A stretch of 64,000 nucleotides of DNA from Bryobacterales bacterium (GTDB lineage Bacteria > Acidobacteriota > Terriglobia > Bryobacterales > UBA6623). The notes beneath the pieces were generated by a model that did not search any database, was not told the DNA's origin, and was given only the letters and a program-made list of their open reading frames with translations. Position numbers and translations under genes: made by a program. Location of the stretch: assembly GCA_026713545.1 (NCBI GenBank), contig JAPOOG010000150.1, positions 62,001 to 126,000 of the forward strand. The letters run 5' to 3'. The first letter of the stretch is position 1. Each line of letters opens with the position of its first letter. Shown piece after piece: positions 7,023 to 31,597 of this stretch.

Positions 7023-8252
7023 ATGCCCATTTCTCGGAGAAAATCGGCTGTCTGCGACATCGACGGCGTCAAGGTCGGCGGCGATCACTCGATCGTCGTT
7101 CAGTCGATGACCACCACTGACACGGCGGACACCGCGTCCACGATCAATCAGGTGATGGAGTTGGCTCGCGCCGGGTCGGAGCTGGTCCGCGTCACCGTCA
7201 ACACGAATAAGGCCGCCGAGGCCGTTCCGACGATCGTCGAGTCGCTGGAAGGGTTCGGCGTTCGTGTTCCGATCATCGGAGATTTCCATTACAACGGGCA
7301 CATCCTGCTCAAGCAATACCCGGAGTGCGCGCGGCTCCTGGCGAAGTATCGGATCAATCCCGGCAACGTCAACATCGGCAAGAAGCATGACGACAATTTC
7401 CGGACGATGATCGAAGTCGCGGTCGAGCATCAGAAGCCGGTGCGAATCGGAGTGAACTGGGGGTCGCTCGATCAGGCTTTGCTGACGAAGCTGATGGATG
7501 AGAACGCGGGCCGGACCGATCCGAAAGACGCTGCCGAAGTGACGCGCGAGGCGATCGTGCTCAGCGCCTTGAATTCCGCCGAAGCGGCCGAGCGCTACGG
7601 CCTGCGGCACGATCAGATCATCTTGAGCGCCAAGGTATCGAACGTGCAGGATCTGGTGACGGTCTACCGCGACCTCGCAGTGCGCTGCGACTATCCTCTG
7701 CACTTGGGGCTGACCGAGGCGGGGATGGGCAGCAAGGGCATCGTCGCTTCGACAGCCGGTCTCGCAATCCTGCTGCAAGAAGGTATCGGCGATACCATCC
7801 GGGTCTCCCTGACGCCTCAGCCTCGGGGCGACCGCACCGAGGAAGTGCGCATCTGCCAGCAGATTCTGCAGTCGCTCGACATCCGCAGCTTTAAACCGCA
7901 AGTGACGGCGTGTCCCGGCTGCGGCCGTACGACCAGCACCTTCTTCCAGGAGATGGCGAGCGAGATCGAGCACTATCTGCACAATCAGATGCCCGTCTGG
8001 AAATCGAGCTATCCAGGCGTGGAGAAGCTCAATGTGGCCGTGATGGGCTGCGTGGTGAACGGTCCCGGAGAATCGAAACACTCCGACATCGGGATCTCGC
8101 TGCCCGGAACCTTCGAGGAGCCGAAAGCGCCGGTGTATGTTGACGGTCGTATGCTGCTCACCCTCAAGGGCGATACGATCGTGCGCGATTTTATCGGTAT
8201 TCTCAATGACTACGTGGACAAGCGTTTCTCGCAGAGCCGCGACGTAGCCTAG
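7023..8252 (+). CDS. ispG: 4-hydroxy-3-methylbut-2-enyl diphosphate synthase (flavodoxin/ferredoxin)
   Basis: IspG converts methylerythritol cyclodiphosphate to HMBPP in the MEP isoprenoid pathway. The 409-residue product has the N-terminal TIM-barrel ([60 protein letters not shown]) and the C-terminal [4Fe-4S] domain with [11 protein letters not shown] and [10 protein letters not shown] carrying the three cluster cysteines and the catalytic Glu region. The ATG at 7023 was chosen because homologous sequence begins just after it; the frame is open back to 6903, but that part includes repeat R1 copy A. It stands alone, transcribed away from the permease. A ferredoxin gene lies elsewhere in the window (38011) but any electron-donor link is speculative. 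Confidence 0.96.
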
Positions 8253-8424
8253 CAGTCCTTGGTGAAACCACGCGCAGCACCGAGAGCGGCGGGCAACCCG
8301 TCGAATACTCCTCCGGCAAGAGGTCGATTAGCTTGTGGACGACTGGGGCTGAACGTATTTGTGCCCTCCCCCTGAAGCGGTCAGAACGACGATCTTGCTC
8401 TTGAGCTTTCGGCTCCGGATGCAT

Positions 8425-8448
8425 GGGAGCCGGGTGAGCCCGGCTCCC
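8425..8448. terminator. GC-rich perfect hairpin downstream of ispG
   Basis: GGGAGCCGGG and CCCGGCTCCC form a perfect 10-bp stem around a TGAG loop, about 170 bp after the ispG stop. No T-tract follows, so it may be a terminator of the hairpin-only kind or an RNA stability element. The rest of 8253..8550 holds only the tRNA promoter. Confidence 0.4.
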
Positions 8449-8480
8449 CCGGCGCTCCCTGTTCCTGTAACGCACTCCGA

Positions 8481-8510
8481 TTGACAGCCGTTGGACCGAC
8501 TGCAAGAATA
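8481..8510 (+). promoter_or_regulatory. Putative sigma-70 promoter of tRNA-Leu
   Basis: A perfect TTGACA (8481-8486) is followed after 17 bp by a weak -10 candidate (AAGAAT at 8504-8509), with the tRNA 5' end 41 bp further on. The -10 is poor, so the assignment rests mainly on the -35 and the position. Confidence 0.45.
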
Positions 8511-8550
8511 CTCGAAGAGGGGCCGCTCCACGCGGCTCCTCCCCGTCTGT

Positions 8551-8639
8551 GCGCAAGTGGCGGAATTGGCAGACGCGCTAGGTTCAGGTCCTAGTCCGGG
8601 TTACACCGGGTGGAGGTTCAAGTCCTCTCTTGCGCACCA
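8551..8639 (+). tRNA. tRNA-Leu (anticodon CAG)
   Basis: The 89-nt class II tRNA has acceptor arms GCGCAAG/CTTGCGC, the D-arm GGCGGAATTGGCAGACGC, an anticodon stem CTAGG/CCTAG with loop TTCAGGT (anticodon CAG), a variable arm stem TCCGGG..., a T-arm with GGTTCAAGTCC, discriminator A and an encoded CCA (8637-8639). I found no duplicate of its 3' end in the window, so it does not mark an island here. Confidence 0.96.
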
Positions 8640-8846
8640 CCATCTCCACGCGGGGAACCTGGAAACACACCCTGCCCGAACAGGGTTCTCTCCAGCCGGC
8701 TCCGTGTCGTTACCCCAAGGTCCGATGCCAACATTCGATCGTCGGCAAGACGCATCGCAGGCTTCGGCCGCACACCCCTTTTCGGACCTGACGCCGTTCA
8801 GCAAATCGGCTGAAGTCTGAGACCCATCGACCTGGAGACACGAGTC

Positions 8847-9956
8847 ATGAAAAAACTCTCGAACGCCGCGCCCGCAAACCAAGGAAGCCGTCGGAAGTTC
8901 CTGAAGCTGCCCCTGGCGGCCGCCGCGATGGCGCCGTCGTTGCCGGCGAGGCCGGTAATCGACGAGCACGATCCCTCGAACATCAAACTCTGCCGGCGGC
9001 TCCGGTCCGACATCGCCGACGACGACCTGCTCTTCCTGCGGCAGATCGGATTGCGCTGGGCGCGCGTGAACTTTCAGGGCAACGCCGAGCTTGACTACAT
9101 GGCGCAAACGCAGAAGCGCTACGAAAGTCATGGGATCAAGATCTTCTCGGGCGTCCACTACGCCTACCGCGAGTTGGACCTGCAGCTCGGCAAGCCGGGC
9201 CGCGATAAGCACATCGAGACCTATCAGCTCTTCCTTCGGAATCTGGGCGCGCTTGGCATCCCGGTTTCCTGCTACGACTTCCACCCCGCGAACACGTATA
9301 CGACCGACATCATCGAGACGCCCCGCGGTTACCGCGCCCGCGAGTTCAGCGTCGATGACTTTCGCGACAAGGTCGAGAAGCAGAAGTTCGACCGCGAGTA
9401 TTCGGCGGAGGAAATCTGGGACGCCTATACGTACTTGATGAAGGCCATTCTGCCGGTGGCGAAAGAAGCCGGCGTGAAACTCGCGCTGCACCCCGATGAC
9501 CCGCCGCTGGCCATGATGAACGGTGTCGCGAAGGTGCTGGTTCACTACGACGGCTATCGCCGCGCCGAGCGGATTTCCGAATCGATTGAAGGACACGGCA
9601 GTCCGCATTGGGGACTGACGTTCTGCGTAGGCACGTGGTCGGAAGGCGGCGGCAACATGGGCAAGGACGTCTACGGCATGATCCGCGACTTCGGCCGCCG
9701 CGGCAAGATCCTCGGGATTCACTTCCGCAACGTCAGCTCGCCGCTTCCGCGCTTCTACGAGACTTTTCCGGACGAAGGCTACATGGATATGTACCAGGTG
9801 ATGAAGGCGCTGCGTGAGGTGAAGTACGACGGCACCGTCGTGCCGGATCACATCCCGCAACTCGTAGGCGATAGCGGAATCCGTCGCGCGGGCACGGCGT
9901 ACTGCATCGCCTACATGAGAGCACTGCTGCAGCGAGCGAACGAAGAAGTGGGATGA
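8847..9956 (+). CDS. Mannonate dehydratase-like sugar dehydratase with Tat leader
   Basis: The 369-residue protein shows UxuA-type signatures: LALHPDDPPLAMMNG, GLTFCVGTW, GIHFRNVSS, FYETFPDEGYMDMYQVMKAL and VVPDHIPQ, which in UxuA bind the divalent metal and substrate. Mannonate dehydratase turns D-mannonate into 2-keto-3-deoxygluconate in uronate catabolism. The N-terminus NQGSRRKFLKLPLAAAAMAPS is a Tat-type twin-arginine leader, so export is possible although UxuA is normally cytosolic. The start at ATG 8847 has GGAG 10 bases upstream. It fits with the uronate-releasing GH105 and pectate lyase genes in this window, but no other uronate pathway gene is adjacent. Confidence 0.8.
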   Translation: MKKLSNAAPANQGSRRKFLKLPLAAAAMAPSLPARPVIDEHDPSNIKLCRRLRSDIADDDLLFLRQIGLRWARVNFQGNAELDYMAQTQKRYESHGIKIFSGVHYAYRELDLQLGKPGRDKHIETYQLFLRNLGALGIPVSCYDFHPANTYTTDIIETPRGYRAREFSVDDFRDKVEKQKFDREYSAEEIWDAYTYLMKAILPVAKEAGVKLALHPDDPPLAMMNGVAKVLVHYDGYRRAERISESIEGHGSPHWGLTFCVGTWSEGGGNMGKDVYGMIRDFGRRGKILGIHFRNVSSPLPRFYETFPDEGYMDMYQVMKALREVKYDGTVVPDHIPQLVGDSGIRRAGTAYCIAYMRALLQRANEEVG

Positions 9957-20096: not shown

Positions 20097-20828
20097 TCAC
20101 CTTGCCGCCACGGCCGAAGGGCGGCTGACGCCATCCCAGCCGGCGGCCTCGATCACTTCTTCCACATCGCCCTCTGCAGTGATCTTGCCGTGCTCGAAGT
20201 AGACGGCCCGCGACGCCAACCGGCGCGCCAGAATAAGGTCATGGGTCACCAGGATCTTGGCCTGACTCAGGCTCTGAAGAATCTCGATCAACGACGACTT
20301 CGCCGGAGGATCCAGGAAGGTTGACGGCTCGTCGAGCAAAATGATTTCGGGGCTCATCGCCAGTACACCGGCGAGCGCGACGCGACGTTTTTCCCCGGCG
20401 CTGAGATGGTAGGGCGGCCGGCTCGCCACGTGCTCCATGGCCACTTGCCCCAAGCTCTCCTTCACGCGCTTCCGTACCTCGTCGGGCGAGAGACCTAGAT
20501 TCAAGGGCCCGAAAGCAACATCCTCCTCGACGCTGGGCATGAAGAGCTGGTCGTCGGAATCCTGGAACAGCATGCCGATCTTTTGCCGCACCTGGGCCAG
20601 GTTTTTCTTCCTCACGGGCATGCCGCAGACGACGATCTCACCCTCGTTCTTCCCCTCGGCCAAGCCGAGCAGATGCAGCAGGAACGTGGTCTTGCCCGAT
20701 CCGTTCGCCCCGAGCACCGCGACCGTTTCACCGAGGTCGAGTTGGAAATCGACGCCGTTGAGGGCCGCCGTTCCGTCGGGGTAGGAATAGCGCAGGTTCG
20801 TGACCTGAATGATGGCTGAGGTCGACAT
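20097..20828 (-). CDS. cbiO: ECF transporter ATPase for cobalt/nickel
   Basis: The 243-residue ATPase begins MSTSAIIQVTNLRYSYPDGT at ATG 20828; a much longer frame reaches back through cbiQ but is not homologous. Walker A GANGSGKTT (40-48), the signature LSAGEKRRVALAG, Walker B IILLDEPSTFLDP and the switch His in VTHDL are all present. CbiO powers uptake by the CbiMNQO complex. It is the last gene of the minus-strand importer cluster, 8 bp after cbiQ. A cobalt supply would serve the B12-dependent ribonucleotide reductase encoded at 57202. Confidence 0.93.
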   Translation of the reverse strand: MSTSAIIQVTNLRYSYPDGTAALNGVDFQLDLGETVAVLGANGSGKTTFLLHLLGLAEGKNEGEIVVCGMPVRKKNLAQVRQKIGMLFQDSDDQLFMPSVEEDVAFGPLNLGLSPDEVRKRVKESLGQVAMEHVASRPPYHLSAGEKRRVALAGVLAMSPEIILLDEPSTFLDPPAKSSLIEILQSLSQAKILVTHDLILARRLASRAVYFEHGKITAEGDVEEVIEAAGWDGVSRPSAVAAR

Positions 20829-20836
20829 GGCAGGTG

Positions 20837-21562
20837 CTACCCCATCCAGAACCGCGCTGTGATTTGAATCGCCACTGCCAACATGACCGTGGCCGCCAGC
20901 CCAAACCAGTCGCCGCGTTGCGTGCCGGTCTCGGCAAGCACGGGGAAGCGACCCTGAAATCCCCGCGCCAACATCGCGTGATGGATGCGTTCGGCGCGGC
21001 CGTAGCTGCGCGCGAAAAGGACGGCGATCGCCCCCGCCGAGGCCTTCCATAGTGGAGTACGTCCTCTGCGCAGCGGAGCGCGGCACTTCCTGGCGCGCGC
21101 CATGGACTGCGCCTGGCTCGAAAGCAGGAAGAGATAGCGATAAACGAAGTGCAGCACCATCAACAGGAACGGCGGGACGAGCATGCGCTCCAGTCCCCTC
21201 AGCAGGGCCGGGAACGGCGTCGTCGCCAACAGCGCGACCGCCGTGTAGGCCGAGAGCAGGCTACGAAGCAGGATGAGGATCGCAAGTGACGGATCACCTC
21301 CCCAAAGGTTGAGGATGGCGATGCCGGCAACGAAGGGCAAGACGATGAGCGAGCGGAGCAAACTCCCACCCAACGGGATGCCCGCGGCCGCCAAATAGGT
21401 CGTCAACAGCGCGAAGTATCCCGCGAAAGCGGTCGCCGACTCCCTGTCCGTTGTCGCCAGGCAGAGCAGGACGGTCAAGGCTCCCAGCAACTTGACGCGG
21501 GCGTCCAGGCCATGGATGCGCGATCCACCGCCGCTCCAGTCTTCGAAGGCCAGCGAACGCAT
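20837..21562 (-). CDS. cbiQ: ECF transporter T component, cobalt/nickel
   Basis: The 241-residue membrane protein has the CbiQ pattern: IHGLDARVKLLGALTVLL at the N-terminus, several TMs, and the cytoplasmic coupling motifs seen as ARSYGRAERIHHAMLARGF (the RAxxxxxAMxARG coupling helix that contacts CbiO). It connects the S unit CbiM to the ATPase. The gene starts 1 bp after the PDGLE-domain gene and ends 8 bp before cbiO. Confidence 0.9.
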   Translation of the reverse strand: MRSLAFEDWSGGGSRIHGLDARVKLLGALTVLLCLATTDRESATAFAGYFALLTTYLAAAGIPLGGSLLRSLIVLPFVAGIAILNLWGGDPSLAILILLRSLLSAYTAVALLATTPFPALLRGLERMLVPPFLLMVLHFVYRYLFLLSSQAQSMARARKCRAPLRRGRTPLWKASAGAIAVLFARSYGRAERIHHAMLARGFQGRFPVLAETGTQRGDWFGLAATVMLAVAIQITARFWMG

Positions 21563-21563
21563 G

Positions 21564-21851
21564 TCAGCCGTCCCGTCCGCGGCGGACGAGACGACCGAAC
21601 AACACTCCGAAGCCGTACATCAGAGCGACTCCGAACAGACCCGCCACAACCTGCGCCGGCCAGGAGGAATCAATCAGCCGGAACTCGTAGTCGGCAAACG
21701 GGCTCCACGGCTCGCCTTCCGCCGCCCGATCCGAAAAGCCGAGCAGCTCGGCGACCGACTCCAGCCCGTCAGGCGAAGACGAAGCCACGAGGACCCCCAA
21801 CACAACCAAAGCCAATGTCAGTGCGCCCAAAAACAGAATGATTCGCTTCAT
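21564..21851 (-). CDS. PDGLE-domain protein, CbiN-like component
   Basis: This 95-residue protein has two membrane segments (5-23 and about 69-85) and the hallmark SSPDGLESV just after the first. PDGLE domains occur alone or fused to CbiM in cobalt/nickel ECF systems, where they take the place of CbiN. Its ATG overlaps the cbiM stop by 4 bp, so translation is coupled. Confidence 0.85.
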   Translation of the reverse strand: MKRIILFLGALTLALVVLGVLVASSSPDGLESVAELLGFSDRAAEGEPWSPFADYEFRLIDSSWPAQVVAGLFGVALMYGFGVLFGRLVRRGRDG

Positions 21852-22480
21852 GCAGCCTCGCCGGGCAAGACGTAGGCGCTATTCAGCCGCTGGATGGCGG
21901 AGAGCGTCACGACGGTAATCAAACCTTCGGCAACTCCCGTAACGGCATGAATGCCCAGCATCGAAACAAACAACGGACCGCTCGGCGCCATGGCGGAGAT
22001 GCTGAGCTCGACAGCGGCCAGCAGAGCCGCCGCCATCAGTGACAACCAGCCGCCCAGAAAGGCCGCCAGGCTCCGCAATCGCGGCCCCCGGCCGTTGAGC
22101 AGCTTCATCGGCAGATAGCCCACCCAGACGCCGACTACCGCCATGTTGACGACATTGGCTCCAAGAGCCAGGATTCCGCCGTCCTGAAAGACGAGAGCCT
22201 GCACGCAAAGAATGGCGGTCATCACCACCGTGGCCGCGCTGGGCCCCAGCGTGAAAGCCAATAGAGCCCCTCCGATCAGGTGTCCTGATGCCCCCGCCAT
22301 TACGGGGAAATTGATCATCTGGGCCGCGAAGACGAACGACCCTAAAACTCCCAGCAGAGGGATCCGGGAATCTTCGAAGACCCGCTGGGTGCGGCGCACG
22401 AAGTAGCCGACGCTGGGGATCGCGGCCAAGTCCAGACTCAGCCAAACAGGAACAGAGAGAAATCCGTCGGGTATATGCAT
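21848..22480 (-). CDS. cbiM: ECF transporter S component, cobalt/nickel
   Basis: The 210-residue protein begins MHIPDGFLS; the N-terminal amine and His 2 are metal ligands in CbiM/NikM. Further conserved pieces are FPVMAGASGHLIGGALLAFTLGP and IHAVTGVAEGLIT. Choice of Co over Ni cannot be settled from sequence. I looked for a cobalamin riboswitch in the 140 bp upstream and saw none. The SPFH operon ends at 22621 just upstream on the same strand, so read-through is possible. Confidence 0.92.
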   Translation of the reverse strand: MHIPDGFLSVPVWLSLDLAAIPSVGYFVRRTQRVFEDSRIPLLGVLGSFVFAAQMINFPVMAGASGHLIGGALLAFTLGPSAATVVMTAILCVQALVFQDGGILALGANVVNMAVVGVWVGYLPMKLLNGRGPRLRSLAAFLGGWLSLMAAALLAAVELSISAMAPSGPLFVSMLGIHAVTGVAEGLITVVTLSAIQRLNSAYVLPGEAA

Positions 22481-22620: not shown

Positions 22621-23124
22621 TCAGTAGACGGGCGTGCCGTAGGGGACGATCGTTTCCACCCTCTCGATCCCGTCGAGTTTCGTGATCGTCCAGCGGCCGG
22701 AGAGCCTCTCGAGTCGGAACCGCTGCGCCTCGTTGCGGTCCGCATAAACGTACTCGACGCGGATGTCCACAGCGCTATCGGACACCTCCAAGGGCTCATA
22801 CATTGCAAAACCCTTGATGAGCTCGTTGTTTTTCATGAGGTATCGTGCGAAGCCCGAGGCCGACATTTCGGCGACGCTCTGCTGGAGTGTTTTCTTCATC
22901 TGCCCGCCGAAGGACTCGAGATAAGCGTCCACGTCTCCGTCACGGGCGGCGTCCATCATGCGATTGATCGTGTCGGTTGGCTGGTCGGACTCCTCCGATC
23001 CCGCAAACAGCGCTTCGGAGGCGCTCGAGGGAAGGCGCCAGCGAGTTTCCCGGCCGATAACCAGGATGAGTCCGGCCGTGACTACCGAGAGCGTGACGAC
23101 GTGAGCTTTGCGCAGCTTCGTCAT
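22621..23124 (-). CDS. Small anchored protein of unknown function in SPFH operon
   Basis: The 167-residue product has an N-terminal membrane anchor (about 8-24) followed by a soluble domain rich in short beta-type segments: TINRMMDAARDGDVDAYLESFGG, then VDIRVEYVYADRNEAQRFRLERLSGRWTITKLDG. This resembles NTF2-like or DUF4878-type domains, but I cannot name the family. Its start overlaps the end of the second hflK by 4 bp, so it is co-translated with the SPFH proteins and probably belongs to the same complex outside the cytoplasm. Confidence 0.7.
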   Translation of the reverse strand: MTKLRKAHVVTLSVVTAGLILVIGRETRWRLPSSASEALFAGSEESDQPTDTINRMMDAARDGDVDAYLESFGGQMKKTLQQSVAEMSASGFARYLMKNNELIKGFAMYEPLEVSDSAVDIRVEYVYADRNEAQRFRLERLSGRWTITKLDGIERVETIVPYGTPVY

Positions 23125-24173
23125 GGCGGCGGAGGGAAGGCCGTCGTGGGCGGAGGGAGTGTCGCCTCGCTCGGTGACGAAGCCGGCTCTCGCCGGATGA
23201 TCGTCATATCGAGATTCCCGGCGCTGTCCACGATCGTTTTCTTCAGACGGGGCAGAACCTCCTCCATGGTCTCGAGATAAAGGCGGCTGCGAGTGAGCGC
23301 CGGGGTCCTGTTGTATTCCACCGCGAGTTGGGCGAATCGAGCAGCGTCGCCTTGCGCCTCGTCAACGCTGCGCTGCCGGTAGGCCTGAGACTCTTCGAGC
23401 AGCTTGGTCGCTTCACCTCGAGCGCGGGGAATCAGATCGTTGGCATAGCCCTGCGCTTCGTTGATGATGCGGACCGAATCCGCGCGGGCGCTGGCCACAT
23501 CCCGGAAAGACGCGGCCGTCTCGGGAGGCGGCGCGATGTACTCGATCGAGACGGTCGAGAGAACGACGCCCAGGCCGTACTGGTCGACGAGCTGCTGTGC
23601 TTGCTGCCGGACGGTTTCCTGGATCGCCACCTTCTCGGTCGTGAGCACATCGTCCACATTGCGCAAGGAGATCTGGCGCGAAAGCTCTGACTCGGTCGCA
23701 GCACTGATTGCCTGCCCTACGTCCTCGGCGCGGAACAGGTATTCATCCGGTGTTGCGACGCTGTACTGCACCACGGTACGGATGTTGATGAGGTTCTGAT
23801 CGCCGGTCAGAAACTGTGAGGCCAGCGGCTCAACTTGACCGAGGGGTTGATCGGCCGGCGCCCCGCCGATGAAGGCGCGCTGCCGTTGGAGAACCTTGAG
23901 CTTGTGGACCTCGGCGATCGGGTAAGGCCAGGTCAGATGTATTCCGGGCAGGATCCGGCGCTCGACGATCTCTCCGAAGCGAGTCACGACGGCCTGCTGA
24001 TCGGGGCCGATGATGTAGACGCCCGTCAGCAACCACAGCGCCGCCAGTACGGCCGCGATCAAGCGTCGTCGGTTCCACGTCGGCGGGCGCTCCTTCTCCA
24101 CAGGCCGGCCGCTGGGCGAGGAGGGGCGCTCAGTGGGTTCGACGGCGACTGTGGGATCGAGAACGGTGCTCAT
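23121..24173 (-). CDS. HflK-like SPFH/Band 7 protein (second copy in operon)
   Basis: The 350-residue protein has a Pro-rich cytosolic tail (1-34), one membrane segment (about 38-56) and an SPFH domain: GPDQQAVVTRFGEI, LPGIHLTWPYPIAEVHKLKV, FLTGDQNLINIRTVVQYSV, then the coiled-coil Ala/Glu-rich region SARADSVRIINEAQGYANDLIPRARGEA and a Pro-rich end. HflK with HflC forms a large cage around FtsH in well-studied bacteria. Here no ftsH is adjacent. It is the third gene of the operon led by the ATPase-HflK fusion, 17 bp after the HflC-like gene. Confidence 0.88.
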   Translation of the reverse strand: MSTVLDPTVAVEPTERPSSPSGRPVEKERPPTWNRRRLIAAVLAALWLLTGVYIIGPDQQAVVTRFGEIVERRILPGIHLTWPYPIAEVHKLKVLQRQRAFIGGAPADQPLGQVEPLASQFLTGDQNLINIRTVVQYSVATPDEYLFRAEDVGQAISAATESELSRQISLRNVDDVLTTEKVAIQETVRQQAQQLVDQYGLGVVLSTVSIEYIAPPPETAASFRDVASARADSVRIINEAQGYANDLIPRARGEATKLLEESQAYRQRSVDEAQGDAARFAQLAVEYNRTPALTRSRLYLETMEEVLPRLKKTIVDSAGNLDMTIIRREPASSPSEATLPPPTTAFPPPP

Positions 24174-24190: not shown

Positions 24191-25150
24191 CTATTGCCCG
24201 CGCGTGAGCAGCCGCAACAGCTCCGAATCGGAACTGAGAACGACGGTTGTCTTGTTGTCGAGCGCCTTCTTGTAGGTCTCCAAGGTGCGCGTCAGCTTGT
24301 AGAACTGCGGGTTGCGGGAATAGGCCTCGCCATAAATGCGCGCCGCGTCGGCATCGCCCTTGCCCTTGATCTCCTCGGCTTCCTTGTAGGCGGCCGACAG
24401 GATCTCCTCGCGTTGGCGGTCAGCGTCAGCTCGGATCCGCAGCGCCTCCTCCTCGCCCTCGGCGCGATACTGCCTCGCGATTCGCTCACGCTCGGCACGC
24501 ATACGGCCAAATACGCTCTGTTTATTCTGCTCGGGCAGGTTCAGCCTCTTGATGCGAACGTCCAGAACATCGATCCCGTATCCTGTCAGCGCCTGCGAGC
24601 CGGTCTGCTCGGAAAGTGCATCGAGCATCGACTCCGTCCGCACCCGCGCCGGGTTTACAGAGACGATGGCGTCGAGATCATGGCGTCCCATCGTCGCGGC
24701 CAGACCCGCCCAGACGATGTCATGCAGGCGCATCTCGGCCGCTTCAGGGTTTCCGACGGTCTCGACGAAAGTTTGCGGCTCGGCGATGCGCCACAGAACG
24801 TAGCTCTCCAACACGAGATTCTTCTTGTCGCGCGTCAGGAACTCGGACGGCGTCGGGTTGTAAACACGCAGGCGCCGATCGAAGTAGGTGGCCGTTTCGT
24901 AGGGCCACTTGAAGTGCGGCCCCGCTTCGGTAACGGTGCGCACGGGCCTGCCGAACGCTGTGACCAGCACGAACTCGGTTTCCCTCACGGTGAAGAACGA
25001 CGCGTACAGAAGCAGCACGACCACAACGGCGGCGGCGTACGGTCCCCAGCGGCGATAGTCGGCCAGCACTTCCCCCCGGCTTCGCCGAGTCACAGGTTCG
25101 TGGTCATGATGGTGATGATGGTGGTGGTGATGGTCGATGTGATCGTGCAT
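24191..25150 (-). CDS. HflC-like SPFH protein with histidine-rich N-terminal tail
   Basis: The 319-residue protein opens with MHDHID followed by nine consecutive histidines and DHE, giving 13 His in the first 17 residues. A membrane segment follows (about 36-55), then an SPFH domain (ETEFVLVTAFGRPVRTVTEAGPHFKWPY; FLTRDKKNLVLESYVLWRI) and the HflC-type MRAERERIARQYRAEGEEEALRIRADADRQ region. By HflC topology the His tail would be cytosolic and could bind Ni, Co, Zn or Cu. Its ATG overlaps the stop of the ATPase-HflK gene by one base. Confidence 0.88.
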   Translation of the reverse strand: MHDHIDHHHHHHHHHDHEPVTRRSRGEVLADYRRWGPYAAAVVVVLLLYASFFTVRETEFVLVTAFGRPVRTVTEAGPHFKWPYETATYFDRRLRVYNPTPSEFLTRDKKNLVLESYVLWRIAEPQTFVETVGNPEAAEMRLHDIVWAGLAATMGRHDLDAIVSVNPARVRTESMLDALSEQTGSQALTGYGIDVLDVRIKRLNLPEQNKQSVFGRMRAERERIARQYRAEGEEEALRIRADADRQREEILSAAYKEAEEIKGKGDADAARIYGEAYSRNPQFYKLTRTLETYKKALDNKTTVVLSSDSELLRLLTRGQ

Positions 25151-28100
25151 CAGGGTTGCTCCAAGACATCGTCAAACGGGATGGTCGGCTGTGGCGGCAT
25201 CGACCCGGGCGGCAACATGAGAACGTCGTCCTCGATCGCATAAAGCGTGCGGCGGCCCGAGCCGTTACGGTCCAGCACGAGCTTGCGCCGTCCGGGCAGG
25301 ATCTCATCCATGACTTCGAGGTAGAGGCGTGTTGCATTGGGGCCGGGAGCGCTGCGGTACCCGGATTCGAACTGCCGGAAGCGCGAGGCATCGCCGACGG
25401 CGCGGTCCGAGCGGACTTTCGAATAGGCCTCGGCGACGCTGATCCGTGCTCCGGCTTGCCCTCGCGCCAGCGCGACCTGCTCGTTGCGGTATCCCTCGGC
25501 GGCGTTGATGCGGCGGCTTTTTTCTTCAAGAGCGCCCGCCACTTCGCGAAAAGCGTCGACGACCTCGACGGACGGATGCACGTCCTGAAAGCGCACCTGC
25601 AAGACCCGCGCCCCGGTCTGGTACTTGGCGAGGCGGTCGTTGAGCTGCCGCTCCGCCTGCTGCTCGAGGCCCCGGCGGCTCGTCGTCAGCAGATCATCGA
25701 GAGCGGTCGAGTTGACGATCCGCTGGATCACCGACTCCGCGGCGACCTGCAACGTCTCTTCCGCGTCGAGTTGCTGAAAGAGATAGGCGTCCGGCCGCTC
25801 GAGGTTGTAGTGGACGATGGCGGTCATCTCGATCATGTTCTGGTCGCCGGTCAGCATCAACGATTCATCCGGCTTGCGCTCGAAGCGTCCCATGCGATGC
25901 TGTGCGTTCCATTCGTAGGCCGGGGGTTCCGACTCGTCCTCGCCGGCTTCGGCCGCCACCGTGCGGAATCCGACCTCGATCGTGCGGACGCGCAGATCTT
26001 CCATCCGCGTCAGCCGCTCGAAGGGATAGGGCAGCTTGTAATGCCAGCCCGGCGGCTCATGCGGCGTCACCTTGGCTCCAAGACGCTCGATGACGCCGAC
26101 CTCACCCGGTTGGATGGTATGGAAGCCGCTCAGAACCCACAATGCCGCGGCAGCCAAGAGCGCCGGTTTGATCATCTCACGGCGGCGATCCCACAGCCAT
26201 GCAAAGCCGGCGGCCGGGTCGAGATGACTGAGCCAATGCTTGAGATCATGCCACCAGGAGCGGACCGGCGTCCGCTCGAAGAGACGCAGCAGCCAGATCC
26301 GTTGCCCTCGCGGCCGCTCGACCCTGAGCAGCCGCACGGAGTTGACCATCACGAAGAAGGACGCGATCTGATGGACGATGGCCGCGCCGATCGGCCCGAG
26401 CAAGCCGCGGCTGGCGGCCAGCACGGCAAGCACGTTGACGATGCCCGCGAAGATGATGATGTTCTGCCAGACGATGGCTACCGCCCTGCGGCTCACGACG
26501 AGCAGCCGGGGCAGCTTTTCGAGCGAACGGTTGAGGTCGACGACATCGGCAGCCTCCGCCGCGATATCGGCCCCCGATCCTGCCACGGCCACGCCGACGT
26601 CGGCCGCTGCCAGAGCGGGTGCGTCGTTAACGCCGTCGCCGATCATCGCAACCTTGCGTCCCTCGGCCTGCAACTGGCGAATCCGCTCGAGCTTCTGCTC
26701 GGGCAGAAGCTCCGACTCGACATGCGGGATGCCGACCTCGCGAGCCACGGCTTGGGCGGCGCTCTTGCGATCGCCGGTCAGGAGAATTACGTTCTGGATG
26801 CCCAGGTCCTCAAGTTCGTGAACGGCGTCATGGGCGCCCCGGCGGGCCGTATCTCGCAGCAGGATCGCGCCCACGAGATGCTCATCGGCCGCGACAAGAA
26901 CGGCGGTTGCTCCTGCGCGGTCGGCTTCTTCGAGGTACGAATCGACGCCGCGGATGCCGTTCTCGGCCAGAAACGCCGCATTGCCCGCCCGGACCCGTCT
27001 TCCGCCCACGTGGCACTCCGCGCCACGGCCGGGAACTATCTCGGCGTCGCTGGACGTCTCGAACTCGACGCCCTTCTCTTGGGCGGTTTGGACAATCACT
27101 TTCGCCAACGGGTGATCGGAGCCGCTTTCCGCCGAGGCGCCGTAGGCCAAGACCTGGTCTTCGGCGAAACCTTCCGCCGGAAGCGTCTTGATGATCTGAA
27201 AGGCGCCGGACGTCAACGTGCCGGTCTTGTCGAAGACGACCGTGTCGACCTTCGAGCCCAGTTGAAGAATCGATCCGCCCCGGACGAGAATGCCCCGGCG
27301 GGCCAAACCGCCGATCCCGGCCACCATCGCCGCCGGTGTCGCCAGAATCAACGCACAGGGACAGCCGACGATGAGAACGGCGACCGTCCGCAGCCAATCG
27401 GACGTGAAGTAGTAGGTCCCCCCGGCCGCCAGAAGCAACGCCGGCAGAAAGTATTGCGCGTAGCGGTCGGCTTGGCGCACTACCGGCGCCCGCCGCGTTT
27501 TCGCAGCCTCCACCAGCTCGACGACTCTCGCCAGTGTGCTTTCTTCAGCCCGATGGCTTACGCGAATATGCAGCAGGCCGTGGCCGTTCAGGGTGCCGGC
27601 GTAGATATCATCTCCCTCGGCCTTGTCACGCGGGACGGACTCGCCGGTGATTGGGCTTTCGTCGACGCTCGATTGGCCGCTCAGGACAACGCCGTCGGCC
27701 GAGATGCGTTCTCCGGCGCGCACGACAATGGTGTCGCCGGGGACGAGGTCCTGAACCGGGACATCCACTTCTTCACCGTCGCGCAGCACTCGAGCCCGGT
27801 GAGGCAGTTGCTCGACGAACTTGTGGATCGCGGCCTCGGTGCGTCCCGCGGCATAGGCCTCCAACCCCTCGCCGACAAGCATGATGAACATCGCCTCGGC
27901 GGCGGCCAGATACTCGCCCACGGTAAGGGCGGCCCCGGCGGCGATGCAGATCGCCAAGTCTGCGGAGATGCGCTTCTCGAGCAGCTCGCCGATCGCACGG
28001 GAAAATGTTCCATACCCCGCAAGCAGAGTCAGAAAGATTGCCGTATCGATCCCCAGGATCGACGAAAACAACCCTGTGACATTGAGCAGAAGCAGGACGC

Positions 28101-28182
28101 CGACGGCCGCCGTGAAGCCGATGTACTTGACCCGCTCCCGCGCGTGCCGGTTGATGGAATGGTCTTCGCTAACGACGTGCAA
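25150..28182 (-). CDS. Fusion of P1B-type metal-transporting ATPase and HflK-like SPFH domain
   Basis: The 1010-residue protein has two full modules. Residues 1-620 are a P1B ATPase: no N-terminal CxxC metal domain; TGES at 179-182 (dephosphorylation), CPC in the ion path at 274-276, DKTGT at 318-322 (phospho-Asp 318), SDHPLA at 355-360 (the P1B His-Pro), and GDGVND at 515-520. The TM7/TM8 ion-site positions read IVNVLAVLAA and VHQIASFFVMVNSVRLLR, lacking the Lys/Asp of Zn pumps and the YN/MxxSS of Cu pumps. Residues about 665-1010 are HflK-like: a membrane segment at 671-687, then HTIQPGEVGVIERLGAK, PPGWHYKLPYPFERL, LTGDQNMIEMTAIVHYNLE and a C-terminal coiled-coil part. The reading frame is continuous with no internal stop. 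It heads the operon. Confidence 0.92.
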   Translation of the reverse strand: MHVVSEDHSINRHARERVKYIGFTAAVGVLLLLNVTGLFSSILGIDTAIFLTLLAGYGTFSRAIGELLEKRISADLAICIAAGAALTVGEYLAAAEAMFIMLVGEGLEAYAAGRTEAAIHKFVEQLPHRARVLRDGEEVDVPVQDLVPGDTIVVRAGERISADGVVLSGQSSVDESPITGESVPRDKAEGDDIYAGTLNGHGLLHIRVSHRAEESTLARVVELVEAAKTRRAPVVRQADRYAQYFLPALLLAAGGTYYFTSDWLRTVAVLIVGCPCALILATPAAMVAGIGGLARRGILVRGGSILQLGSKVDTVVFDKTGTLTSGAFQIIKTLPAEGFAEDQVLAYGASAESGSDHPLAKVIVQTAQEKGVEFETSSDAEIVPGRGAECHVGGRRVRAGNAAFLAENGIRGVDSYLEEADRAGATAVLVAADEHLVGAILLRDTARRGAHDAVHELEDLGIQNVILLTGDRKSAAQAVAREVGIPHVESELLPEQKLERIRQLQAEGRKVAMIGDGVNDAPALAAADVGVAVAGSGADIAAEAADVVDLNRSLEKLPRLLVVSRRAVAIVWQNIIIFAGIVNVLAVLAASRGLLGPIGAAIVHQIASFFVMVNSVRLLRVERPRGQRIWLLRLFERTPVRSWWHDLKHWLSHLDPAAGFAWLWDRRREMIKPALLAAAALWVLSGFHTIQPGEVGVIERLGAKVTPHEPPGWHYKLPYPFERLTRMEDLRVRTIEVGFRTVAAEAGEDESEPPAYEWNAQHRMGRFERKPDESLMLTGDQNMIEMTAIVHYNLERPDAYLFQQLDAEETLQVAAESVIQRIVNSTALDDLLTTSRRGLEQQAERQLNDRLAKYQTGARVLQVRFQDVHPSVEVVDAFREVAGALEEKSRRINAAEGYRNEQVALARGQAGARISVAEAYSKVRSDRAVGDASRFRQFESGYRSAPGPNATRLYLEVMDEILPGRRKLVLDRNGSGRRTLYAIEDDVLMLPPGSMPPQPTIPFDDVLEQP

Positions 28183-28506
28183 TGCAGTTCAAGATAGCAG
28201 AACGAGAGGCCCGTATCCGTCAGGAACAGCGTTGACGAACAGACTCGCTCCGATCGGCCCTGGAGACTTCCGAGCCCTTGTCATGATCGGAATTTCGCTC
28301 TGTGGATCGGGGATGAGAACACCAACCCGCTTCTCCGCGCGGTCGTGGAAGTCTTGCATGGCCGTCGACGATTGTCCATCAACAGTACCGGGGCTCCCGA
28401 CAGGTGTTCACTGCGTGCCGCTCTCCAACTGCCATTCGGAAGTGCATTGATCCGACAACCTGTTCAATACAGGAGAAAAACGGGGGCCAACCACCGTTTG
28501 GGCGGC
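28183..28506. other. Divergent intergenic region, left part
   Basis: This stretch lies between the divergent ATPase-HflK operon and the DUF2339 gene. I see no gene and no convincing promoter pair; its right end leads into the perfect inverted repeat at 28507..28536. Confidence 0.5.
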
Positions 28507-28555: not shown

Positions 28556-31500
28556 ATGGCGGCCATTCTCTATCTCATCCTGTTGGGGTTCGGCATCGTC
28601 CTTCTCGTGATAGTGCGGAGGGCGCAGAAGACGGCCGGCCACAACCGCTCCCGAGCGGCGCATCTCGAGGCGGAACTGAAGGCGACACGGTCGGCTTTGG
28701 TGAATCGGATCAATGTCCTTGAGAAACAGGTAACGGATCTTCAAGCCGGCAGGGCCGTCGAGACGCCGCCTGAGCCGGAACAGCCGGCGCAAGGGCAAGC
28801 GTCGCTGCCGGAGCCGACGCCTGCGACCGTGGATTCTCCCGAGGAGTCGCGTGCAGTCGAGCCTGAAGTCGCCGCCCCCACTCCGCCGCCGCAACCTGCC
28901 GCCCCGTCAGCGCCTCCCCGATCGCCGAGTGAACCGCCGCCGCTGGCGCAGCTCTCGCGCCGCATCGACTGGGAGCAATGGATCGGCATCAAGGGCGCCG
29001 CCGTGCTGGGCGGGATCGTTCTCGCACTGGCGGCAGTCATGTTCCTGCGCTACGCGATCGAATACGACTTGATTCCGCCGATCGTGAGGGTCGCGATCGG
29101 CTTGGCCACGGGGATTGCGGCCATTGCGGTCTCCGAGCGGCTGCGGGGACGCGAGTATGTGACGACGGCCAACGCGCTGGCGTTCGGGGGCATTGTCGTG
29201 CTCTACGTCTCGGTGTGGGCGGCGCGCGTTTTGTACGAGCTGGTGCCGGTGAGTCTGGGATTCCTGCTGATGATTCTCGTGACGACGGCATGCGGCGCCC
29301 TCGCCTGGAGGCATCGGGCTCGTGAGATCGCGCTGCTGGGTCCGATCGGAGGTTTCGCGACGCCGATTCTGATGTCCACGGGCCACGACGACCCGATTGG
29401 ACTCTTTGGCTACGTGCTGCTGCTCGACGTGGGACTGCTGTGGTTGGCGCGGGTACGACGCTGGCCGTTGTTGATGATTCTGGCGCTCTTCGGAACGTTC
29501 TTTTACGAGGCGCTCTGGGTTCTGTTCCGGATGGGACCGGATCGGACCGCGATCGGGCTCGGCGTTCTTGTGTTGTTCGGCCTGTTCTTCAGCTTGGCTA
29601 TGGGGTTGCGCAAGCCCAAGGAGATTACATCCGAGCAGGACGCGATGGAGCGGCTGGTGCAGCTCGCCGGTACGTGGGCTCCGTTCGTGTTGGCGCTCTA
29701 TTTTGCCGCGCGTGCGGGTCTGGGCGATCACCTGTATCCCGTCGCGGTGCTCATGTTGGTGTTGTCGATAGCAGCCGCTTGGCTCGGCCGAACCGAGCGG
29801 CTGCCGCAACTCCCGGCGGGAGCGGCGGCGGGTTGTGTCGCGGTGGTGATGGCTTGGCTCATGCGGACGGACTTTACTACGCCTCTGGCTTGGGAAGCTT
29901 CGGTGGTCTGCATTGCGCTCACGGGAGCGTTTCACGCTTTCCTTGAGTTCGACAAGCGGCGGCCGGTCGAGCCAGGCCAAATCACGGGGGCCAAACCTGC
30001 CGTGATCACATCACTCGGATTCCTCGGCCTGCTGGCGCTGGTGGCGATGACGGTCACGGGGACCCCGCTCTGGCCCTGGATGGCCGGATGGACGGCGCTG
30101 GCGGGGATGGCGTTCCGGCAAGCGGGCGTATCCGGACGAGGGCTGATCCAACAGGCGGCCGGTTTCGGGTTGGCTCTTGGGTTCTCCCTGTTTTTCTTGA
30201 CGTTTCACGGTAGTTCGTCGCTTCCTCCCGACACCCTGTTCTTCGGGTTGGTGGTTCTCGCCGGGTTGGGACTTCAAATCATCGCGTTCCGCCGGAAGGA
30301 ATCGCAGCTACGCCGGTCTGCCGATTGGGCCGCCGCGGCGTTTGCGATGACGGTCTTGTTTCTGATGCTTTTCGAAAGCTCGGCCCCCGGTATCGAGGCT
30401 TGGTTGTACTTGGGCGCGACGATTACGCTGGGGTTGTTGAGCGTGCTCTCGGCGACTCGGCTGGAGAGCGGCGGACTCTATTTCGCGGTAGTGGCTTTGC
30501 TTTCCTGCAATCATCTTCTGTGGGTCGAGAGCGGAATCTTCGGCCGCGGCGGCCGTGAGGAGACGTTGCTCTCGATGGCGTCGCAACTGGCGGTCGTGAT
30601 TGCGCTTTCATACCTGCCTTTCCTTGCGGGGACGAGCCTGCTCAGGCGGCGCTGGGCGTGGTATGGCGCAGCCCTCTCGGGGCCGGCCTGGTTCTTCCCG
30701 TTGCGCGAACTCTTCGAAGCTCATTTCGGTGACACTGCGATCGGGTTGCTGCCTGTCGTGCTGGGGGCGGTGTCTCTCGGCGCAGTATTCATGGCGCGCC
30801 GGCTCGGCCCGCTGGACGATGCCGATCGGCTGAGGCCGCTGGTCTGGTTCTCAGCGGTCGCCTTGGGATTCGCAAGCGTCGCCATCCCCCTGCAACTCGA
30901 CAAGGAGTGGATCACCGTCGGCTGGGCGCTGGAAGGGTTTGCGGTAATCACGCTGTGGAAGCGTCTGGACCATCCGGGGCTCAAGTACTTCGGCTTGGCG
31001 TTGCTGGCGGCAGTGACCGTGCGCTTGGTCGCCAACCCGGGTCTATTGGATTACTACGAACGCTCCGCTCTGCCGATTGTGAACTGGCTGATGTACACGT
31101 ACCTGATCCCTGCCGCTGCACTGCTTGGCGGGCTGCGCCATCTTCGGGACCAGGAAGTAGAGCGGGCACGCTCTTGGGAGACGAACCTGTACTCGGGACG
31201 GCGACCGTTGGGCGCGATCGTCTGCGGGATGGCGGCCGTGGCGGTCGTGTTCACTTGGATCAACTTGACGATTTTCGATTTCTACGCCGAAGGTGCCGCG
31301 TTGACAATTTCATTCGAGCGCATGGCTGCCCGCGATCTCACGCTGTCGATTGCCTGGGCCTTGTATGCGCTGCTGTTGCTCAGTATCGGTTTCAAGCGAG
31401 ACAGCGAGGGGCTGCGGTGGGTCAGCCTGGCGTTCCTGGTACTCACCATCGGCAAGGTTTTTCTGCACGATCTGGGTGAGTTGGAAGACCTATATCGCGT

Positions 31501-31597
31501 GGCATCTCTCGTCGGCCTGGCGCTTTCATTGATCCTGGTTTCTCTGGCGTATCAGAGATTCGTCTTCAGCAAGCGCTCGACGAAAGAGGATTCATGA
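28556..31597 (+). CDS. DUF2339 multi-pass membrane protein
   Basis: The 1013-residue protein has an N-terminal membrane segment (3-20), a short coiled coil (about 30-65), a Pro/Glu-rich linker (70-135) and then about 24 hydrophobic segments. The DUF2339 entry motif is visible as WEQWIGIKGAAVLGGIVLAL followed by AVMFLRYAIEYDLIPP. The family's function is unknown; it is an inner-membrane protein found in diverse bacteria. The next gene overlaps its stop by 4 bp. It is divergent from the ATPase-HflK operon, with an inverted repeat between them. Confidence 0.87.
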   Translation: MAAILYLILLGFGIVLLVIVRRAQKTAGHNRSRAAHLEAELKATRSALVNRINVLEKQVTDLQAGRAVETPPEPEQPAQGQASLPEPTPATVDSPEESRAVEPEVAAPTPPPQPAAPSAPPRSPSEPPPLAQLSRRIDWEQWIGIKGAAVLGGIVLALAAVMFLRYAIEYDLIPPIVRVAIGLATGIAAIAVSERLRGREYVTTANALAFGGIVVLYVSVWAARVLYELVPVSLGFLLMILVTTACGALAWRHRAREIALLGPIGGFATPILMSTGHDDPIGLFGYVLLLDVGLLWLARVRRWPLLMILALFGTFFYEALWVLFRMGPDRTAIGLGVLVLFGLFFSLAMGLRKPKEITSEQDAMERLVQLAGTWAPFVLALYFAARAGLGDHLYPVAVLMLVLSIAAAWLGRTERLPQLPAGAAAGCVAVVMAWLMRTDFTTPLAWEASVVCIALTGAFHAFLEFDKRRPVEPGQITGAKPAVITSLGFLGLLALVAMTVTGTPLWPWMAGWTALAGMAFRQAGVSGRGLIQQAAGFGLALGFSLFFLTFHGSSSLPPDTLFFGLVVLAGLGLQIIAFRRKESQLRRSADWAAAAFAMTVLFLMLFESSAPGIEAWLYLGATITLGLLSVLSATRLESGGLYFAVVALLSCNHLLWVESGIFGRGGREETLLSMASQLAVVIALSYLPFLAGTSLLRRRWAWYGAALSGPAWFFPLRELFEAHFGDTAIGLLPVVLGAVSLGAVFMARRLGPLDDADRLRPLVWFSAVALGFASVAIPLQLDKEWITVGWALEGFAVITLWKRLDHPGLKYFGLALLAAVTVRLVANPGLLDYYERSALPIVNWLMYTYLIPAAALLGGLRHLRDQEVERARSWETNLYSGRRPLGAIVCGMAAVAVVFTWINLTIFDFYAEGAALTISFERMAARDLTLSIAWALYALLLLSIGFKRDSEGLRWVSLAFLVLTIGKVFLHDLGELEDLYRVASLVGLALSLILVSLAYQRFVFSKRSTKEDS

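Follow-up and report, generated by a model that had tools for sequence, protein, structure and literature searches.

A P1B-type metal ATPase and an HflK-type SPFH domain in one protein chain: a possible metal-release dome in Acidobacteriota

The role of SPFH proteins in membranes is a long-standing question, and the locus that we describe here raises it in a specific form: what is a metal pump doing in the same chain as an HflK-type SPFH protein? The gene is located in a stretch of 64,000 nucleotides from a Bryobacterales bacterium, which we refer to as "the window"; the original prediction, made from these letters, had read it as a P1B-type ATPase joined in one frame to an HflK/SPFH domain, and had proposed a metal-export or metal-quality-control complex. 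When a transporter belongs covalently to an SPFH protein, the client of the cage is fixed, and the function of the cage becomes directly testable.

Table 1. Positions of the genes, domains and motifs of the pump-SPFH operon and of related loci
Feature	Location	Strand	Details
P1B ATPase-HflK fusion gene	25150..28182	minus	1010 aa
P1B-type metal ATPase part	26317..28182	minus	residues 1-622
CPC motif, metal-site helix	27355..27363	minus	residues 274-276; unchanged in 66 fused proteins
DKTGT phosphorylation motif	27217..27231	minus	residues 318-322; 66/66
His604-Gln605, last ATPase helix	26368..26373	minus	66/66 fused proteins
Variable linker, predicted cytosolic	26167..26316	minus	residues 623-672; from alignment and AlphaFold model
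SPFH/Band_7 domain	25492..26118	minus	residues 689-897
Coiled coil and C-terminal strands	25153..25491	minus	residues 898-1010
HflC-type SPFH protein	24191..25150	minus	319 aa
His-rich N-terminal tail of HflC, predicted cytosolic	25094..25150	minus	MHDHIDHHHHHHHHHDHEP
Second, plain HflK-type SPFH protein	23121..24173	minus	350 aa
Small conserved protein, N-terminal membrane helix and NTF2-like domain	22621..23124	minus	
SO_0444 Cu/Zn efflux permease-HflK fusion	L116 (own genome, G000:C11) 7323-9623	minus	
HflC and HflK after the SO_0444-HflK fusion	L116 6352-7383 and 4982-6346	minus	
CDF-HflK fusions	L171:3314-5116; L174:2981-4798; L175:3022-4893		
Unfused Verrucomicrobiota operons	L121 7220-14322; L120 5394-12844; L164; L165; L172; L176-L178		
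Long HflK examples	L121:12385-14322; L156:4892-6787		

The predicted join has held: the frame runs unbroken for 1010 codons, from a TTG start at 28182 to a stop at 25150-25152, and a single gene encodes a complete P1B metal ATPase and a complete HflK-type SPFH domain. The actuator, P and N domains of the pump are all present, with TGES at residue 179, CPC at 274, DKTGT at 318, HP at 357 and GDGVND at 515; the Pfam families E1-E2_ATPase (125-296), Hydrolase (312-528) and Band_7 (689-897) each score above cut-off, and the same chain is matched by both NCBIfam TIGR01525 (557 bits, cut-off 346) and TIGR01933, hflK (169.8 bits, cut-off 159.4). The pump lacks a heavy-metal-binding domain at its N-terminus. 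Before the SPFH domain, a transmembrane helix is predicted at about residues 667-684; the domain is followed by the counterpart of those HflK regions that form the ring and the hat, as identified from the model and from the sequence match of E. coli HflK chains, which covers residues 774-976 of the fusion and extends up to HflK residue 349. The AlphaFold model, built with 46 aligned relatives, contains both folds (mean pLDDT 77.5, pTM 0.61), and the solved structures closest to it are P1B ATPases. On the plus strand, a frame of comparable length (25156-28197) runs antisense to the gene; it has no Pfam match and has been set aside as a high-GC shadow.

More than 60 Acidobacteriota loci, with identities as low as about 42%, encode the fused chain, as do several Verrucomicrobiota; its carriers are bacteria of soil and marine habitats. 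Among GTDB species genomes we have found 68 fusion loci, nearly all labelled Acidobacteriota, mostly full length and some cut off at contig ends. The fusion is present in 16 of the 18 genomes of the window's family, in 20 of the 396 genomes of an Acidobacteriota-wide sample and in 6 of 388 from the phylum of a Verrucomicrobia locus. With 66 full-length fused proteins in the alignment (46 after removal of those more than 93% identical), the architecture is clearly not confined to one genome, and an assembly join of two separate genes is ruled out by the many independent assemblies that carry the same chain; these were the two results by which the original prediction could have failed. CPC, DKTGT, GDG.ND and the His604-Gln605 pair are invariant among the fused proteins, while in some relatives HP is altered (HV, HA) or TGES is altered (TGEP). 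His604 aligns with the histidine of the P1B-4 ATPase 7qbz, at a position that is occupied by Asp in ZntA (P1B-2) and by Met in CopA (P1B-1). A single fusion event fits these data, since trees unite the fused pumps (support 92/87) and likewise unite their SPFH domains. Two taxonomic labels are doubtful: in the pair L055 and L053, a Cytophagales record has the same locus as an Acidobacteria record, probably through a binning error, and the assignment of L024 to Acidimicrobiia is also in question.

The fusion gene is the first of four genes in conserved order. It is followed by the gene for HflC, then by another HflK gene, and the last gene encodes an NTF2-like protein with a membrane anchor. The stop codon of the fusion gene overlaps the ATG of HflC (TGATG), and both downstream SPFH genes are bona fide members of their families (TIGR01932, 210.7 bits, cut-off 134.4; TIGR01933, 225.9 bits). 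The expected co-occurrence is borne out: HflC, the second HflK and the small gene trail the fusion in most Acidobacteriota loci whose contig extends that far, while two Verrucomicrobia loci have the small gene upstream, on the opposite strand. A His-rich HflC tail is found in about a third of the fusion loci (22/66), and also in proteobacterial plasmid operons of pump and SPFH genes. The operon genes are the only recurring neighbours, i.e. no conserved metal regulator has been found near the operon; upstream of it there is no consistent palindrome that would qualify as a Zur-like site, and the promoter and terminator scan has remained at chance level. In the window, a DUF2339 membrane protein (28556-31597, plus) is divergent from the operon, and genes of a CbiMQO-type cobalt/nickel uptake system (20097-22480, minus) are located directly downstream of it. 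This CbiMQO neighbour is restricted to close relatives of the window and is not conserved with the operon, so that a cobalt/nickel role read from it has been rejected.

HflK and HflC start in the cytosol, and the P1B core also ends there, so that the topological argument of the original prediction stands: the SPFH part of the fusion would be periplasmic, since the pump core ends on the side of the membrane where HflK begins. By the same established topology, the His-rich tail of HflC would sit beside the entry side of the pump.

Metal transporters other than the P1B pump have been joined to HflK in the same way. The window's own genome encodes a fusion of an SO_0444 Cu/Zn efflux permease (NF033936, above cut-off) with HflK, which has ZIP, CusB-like and outer-membrane efflux genes in its vicinity; this fusion, followed by HflC and HflK, recurs in relatives and in four other, divergent Acidobacteriota genomes. 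A CDF cation transporter-HflK fusion, also followed by HflC and HflK, is present in three Acidobacteriota genomes. The SPFH-fused transporters that we have found belong to three unrelated metal families, and other kinds of client have not been recognised among them. Within the genome that contains the window, the HflK/C-type genes found are located in the two transporter-fusion operons; further SPFH genes that we looked at were of the stomatin type with NfeD and of the prohibitin type, plus one frame on contig C48. The recurrence in two further, unrelated metal transporter families suggests that some bacteria have a dedicated membrane compartment for metal release.

Pump and SPFH genes are also found side by side without fusion, an arrangement that, like the fusions of the other exporter families, goes unmentioned in the original prediction. 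In Verrucomicrobiota, operons with a separate P1B pump after a long HflK, HflC and HflK are common, often with an ABC ATPase, and four annotated plasmid loci, from Burkholderia, Paraburkholderia, Klebsiella and Rhizobium, show the same gene order; of the 10 plasmid records in which the pump has a close match, all 10 have an HflC match beside it. The long HflK carries an N-terminal membrane extension of roughly 300 residues, which has no Pfam match and resembles CDF proteins weakly in profile comparison (probability 20%, E 0.0012), so that its origin from a decayed CDF transporter is kept only as a lead. In one SPFH-linked unfused pump (L108 / L120:6595-8523), CPC has become VPA, and the metal site may be lost. 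In Pseudomonas aeruginosa, the cluster PA2434-PA2439 combines the gene of the P-type ATPase HmtA with three genes of the HflK/C type (PMC4542158, PMC11761036), which is the gene content of these unfused operons. The cluster is induced by Zn depletion (PMC4542158), and HmtA has been reported to import Zn and Cu (PMC8456098), a claim that according to a review still needs confirmation (PMC10393844). In the tree test of shared ancestry between fused and HmtA-like pumps the AU p value was 0.08, HmtA itself being outside the trees.

We consider it somewhat more probable than an even chance that the operon encodes a dome of the HflK/C type that is dedicated to metal transport and contains the pump as a built-in part, and that the pump releases metal of the Zn/Cu class into this dome; assembly, stoichiometry, metal and direction are all inferred. 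The C-terminus of the ATPase would pass through a membrane helix into the periplasmic HflK-type SPFH domain, and the fusion would co-assemble with HflC and the plain HflK of the operon, with the pump at only some of the K-type positions. The His-rich HflC tail may gather metal on the cytosolic side; the pump would then move the metal out of the cytosol into the space that the dome covers, next to the NTF2-like protein. As the operon also encodes HflC and HflK without a pump, probably not every subunit carries one: prohibitin and erlin domes are about 200 A wide (PMC12624060), and a 24-subunit ring of this width would give each subunit about 26 A. A pump on each would not fit into this space, which would explain the plain SPFH proteins of the operon. 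This reading is supported by the conservation of the fusion, the intact motifs of the pump, the conserved operon and the equivalent fusions of two other exporter families. P1B, SO_0444 and CDF proteins usually transport metal out of the cytosol. Several points count against it: HmtA, which comes from the same kind of cluster, is reported as an importer; SPFH complexes known so far consist of one or two paralogs (PMC12624060), as opposed to the three encoded here; HP or TGES is altered in some relatives, and CPC is lost in one unfused relative; and neither a metal regulator nor a Zur-like site has been found near the genes. Of the original proposal, metal translocation within an SPFH assembly stands as the best reading, strengthened by the fusions of three families, whereas the quality-control idea has gained no specific support.

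The direction of transport is the point at which the strongest alternative departs. The pump could, as in the case of HmtA, bring Zn or Cu into the cytosol, with the dome concentrating or guarding periplasmic metal before uptake; the gene content is that of the Zn-depletion-induced hmtA cluster, the last-helix histidine and the His-rich HflC tails are shared with the plasmid operons of hmtA layout, and in the window's genus a metal-uptake system, CbiMQO, is directly downstream. The other two families fused to HflK are efflux families, however, CbiMQO does not travel with the operon and the import by HmtA itself awaits the confirmation that the review asks for (PMC10393844), so that we regard import as fairly unlikely. 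It is unlikely, in our judgement, that the SPFH part acts in quality control or turnover, by delivering the pump to FtsH or by protecting it, so that proteolysis would set the number of pumps and no metal would be released into a compartment: HflK/C binds FtsH in E. coli (PMC12048511), and the window's genome has one FtsH, with its HflK/C-type genes found in the transporter operons, but this FtsH is encoded outside the operon, the fused clients recognised are all metal transporters and no link between the NTF2-like gene and proteolysis has been found. That the SPFH part is a mere membrane-microdomain address or a small clamp, with no large ring, is very improbable: a role in organising microdomains is also discussed for SPFH proteins, and a ring cannot be shown by sequence, but the cage-building region of coiled coil and C-terminal strands is kept, as are the HflC and HflK partners throughout.

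Returning to the dome with a built-in exporter, its component families are already known, and there is a real chance that together they make a new kind of compartment. Tentatively, and with less than even confidence, we propose a class of metal-release compartments, i.e. three-paralog HflK/C-type domes that hold an exporter covalently in the ring and enclose a periplasmic space, and that would have arisen with at least three unrelated exporter families. That this design recurs with metal transporters of three families suggests metal handling as a specific job of some HflK/C-type domes, and gives the SPFH neighbours of Pseudomonas hmtA a role that can be tested. In the open-access literature, most subscription journals being outside the search, we have found no description of a transporter-SPFH fusion or of an SPFH role for HmtA.

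Among the known systems, the HflK/HflC cage around FtsH of E. coli is similar in its HflK and HflC proteins, both above the family cut-offs here, in topology and in the C-terminal ring region; it differs in that here a metal ATPase is located in the HflK chain, three SPFH paralogs are encoded instead of two and FtsH lies outside the operon. SPFH proteins form membrane domes, and the stomatin dome of human red cells, which encloses the aquaporin AQP1 or the urea transporter UT-B (PMC12407830), likewise holds membrane transporters, but it is eukaryotic and non-covalent and its clients are passive channels, in contrast to an ATP-driven metal pump within the chain. ZntA, CopA and sCoaT (7qbz) share the fold and the catalytic motifs with the fused pump, ZntA and CopA also CPC, and 7qbz the last-helix histidine; none of them has an SPFH part, and the combination of CPC with this histidine sets the fused pump apart from ZntA and CopA. 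The hmtA cluster, compared by its published description, similarly has a P1B-type pump adjoining three HflK/C-type SPFH genes, with pump and SPFH proteins encoded separately and HmtA reported as an importer; the plasmid operons of the same layout share the last-helix histidine of the pump and the His-rich HflC tails with our operon, and differ from it in the membrane extension of roughly 300 residues on their first HflK and in the NTF2-like gene, which is not seen in them.
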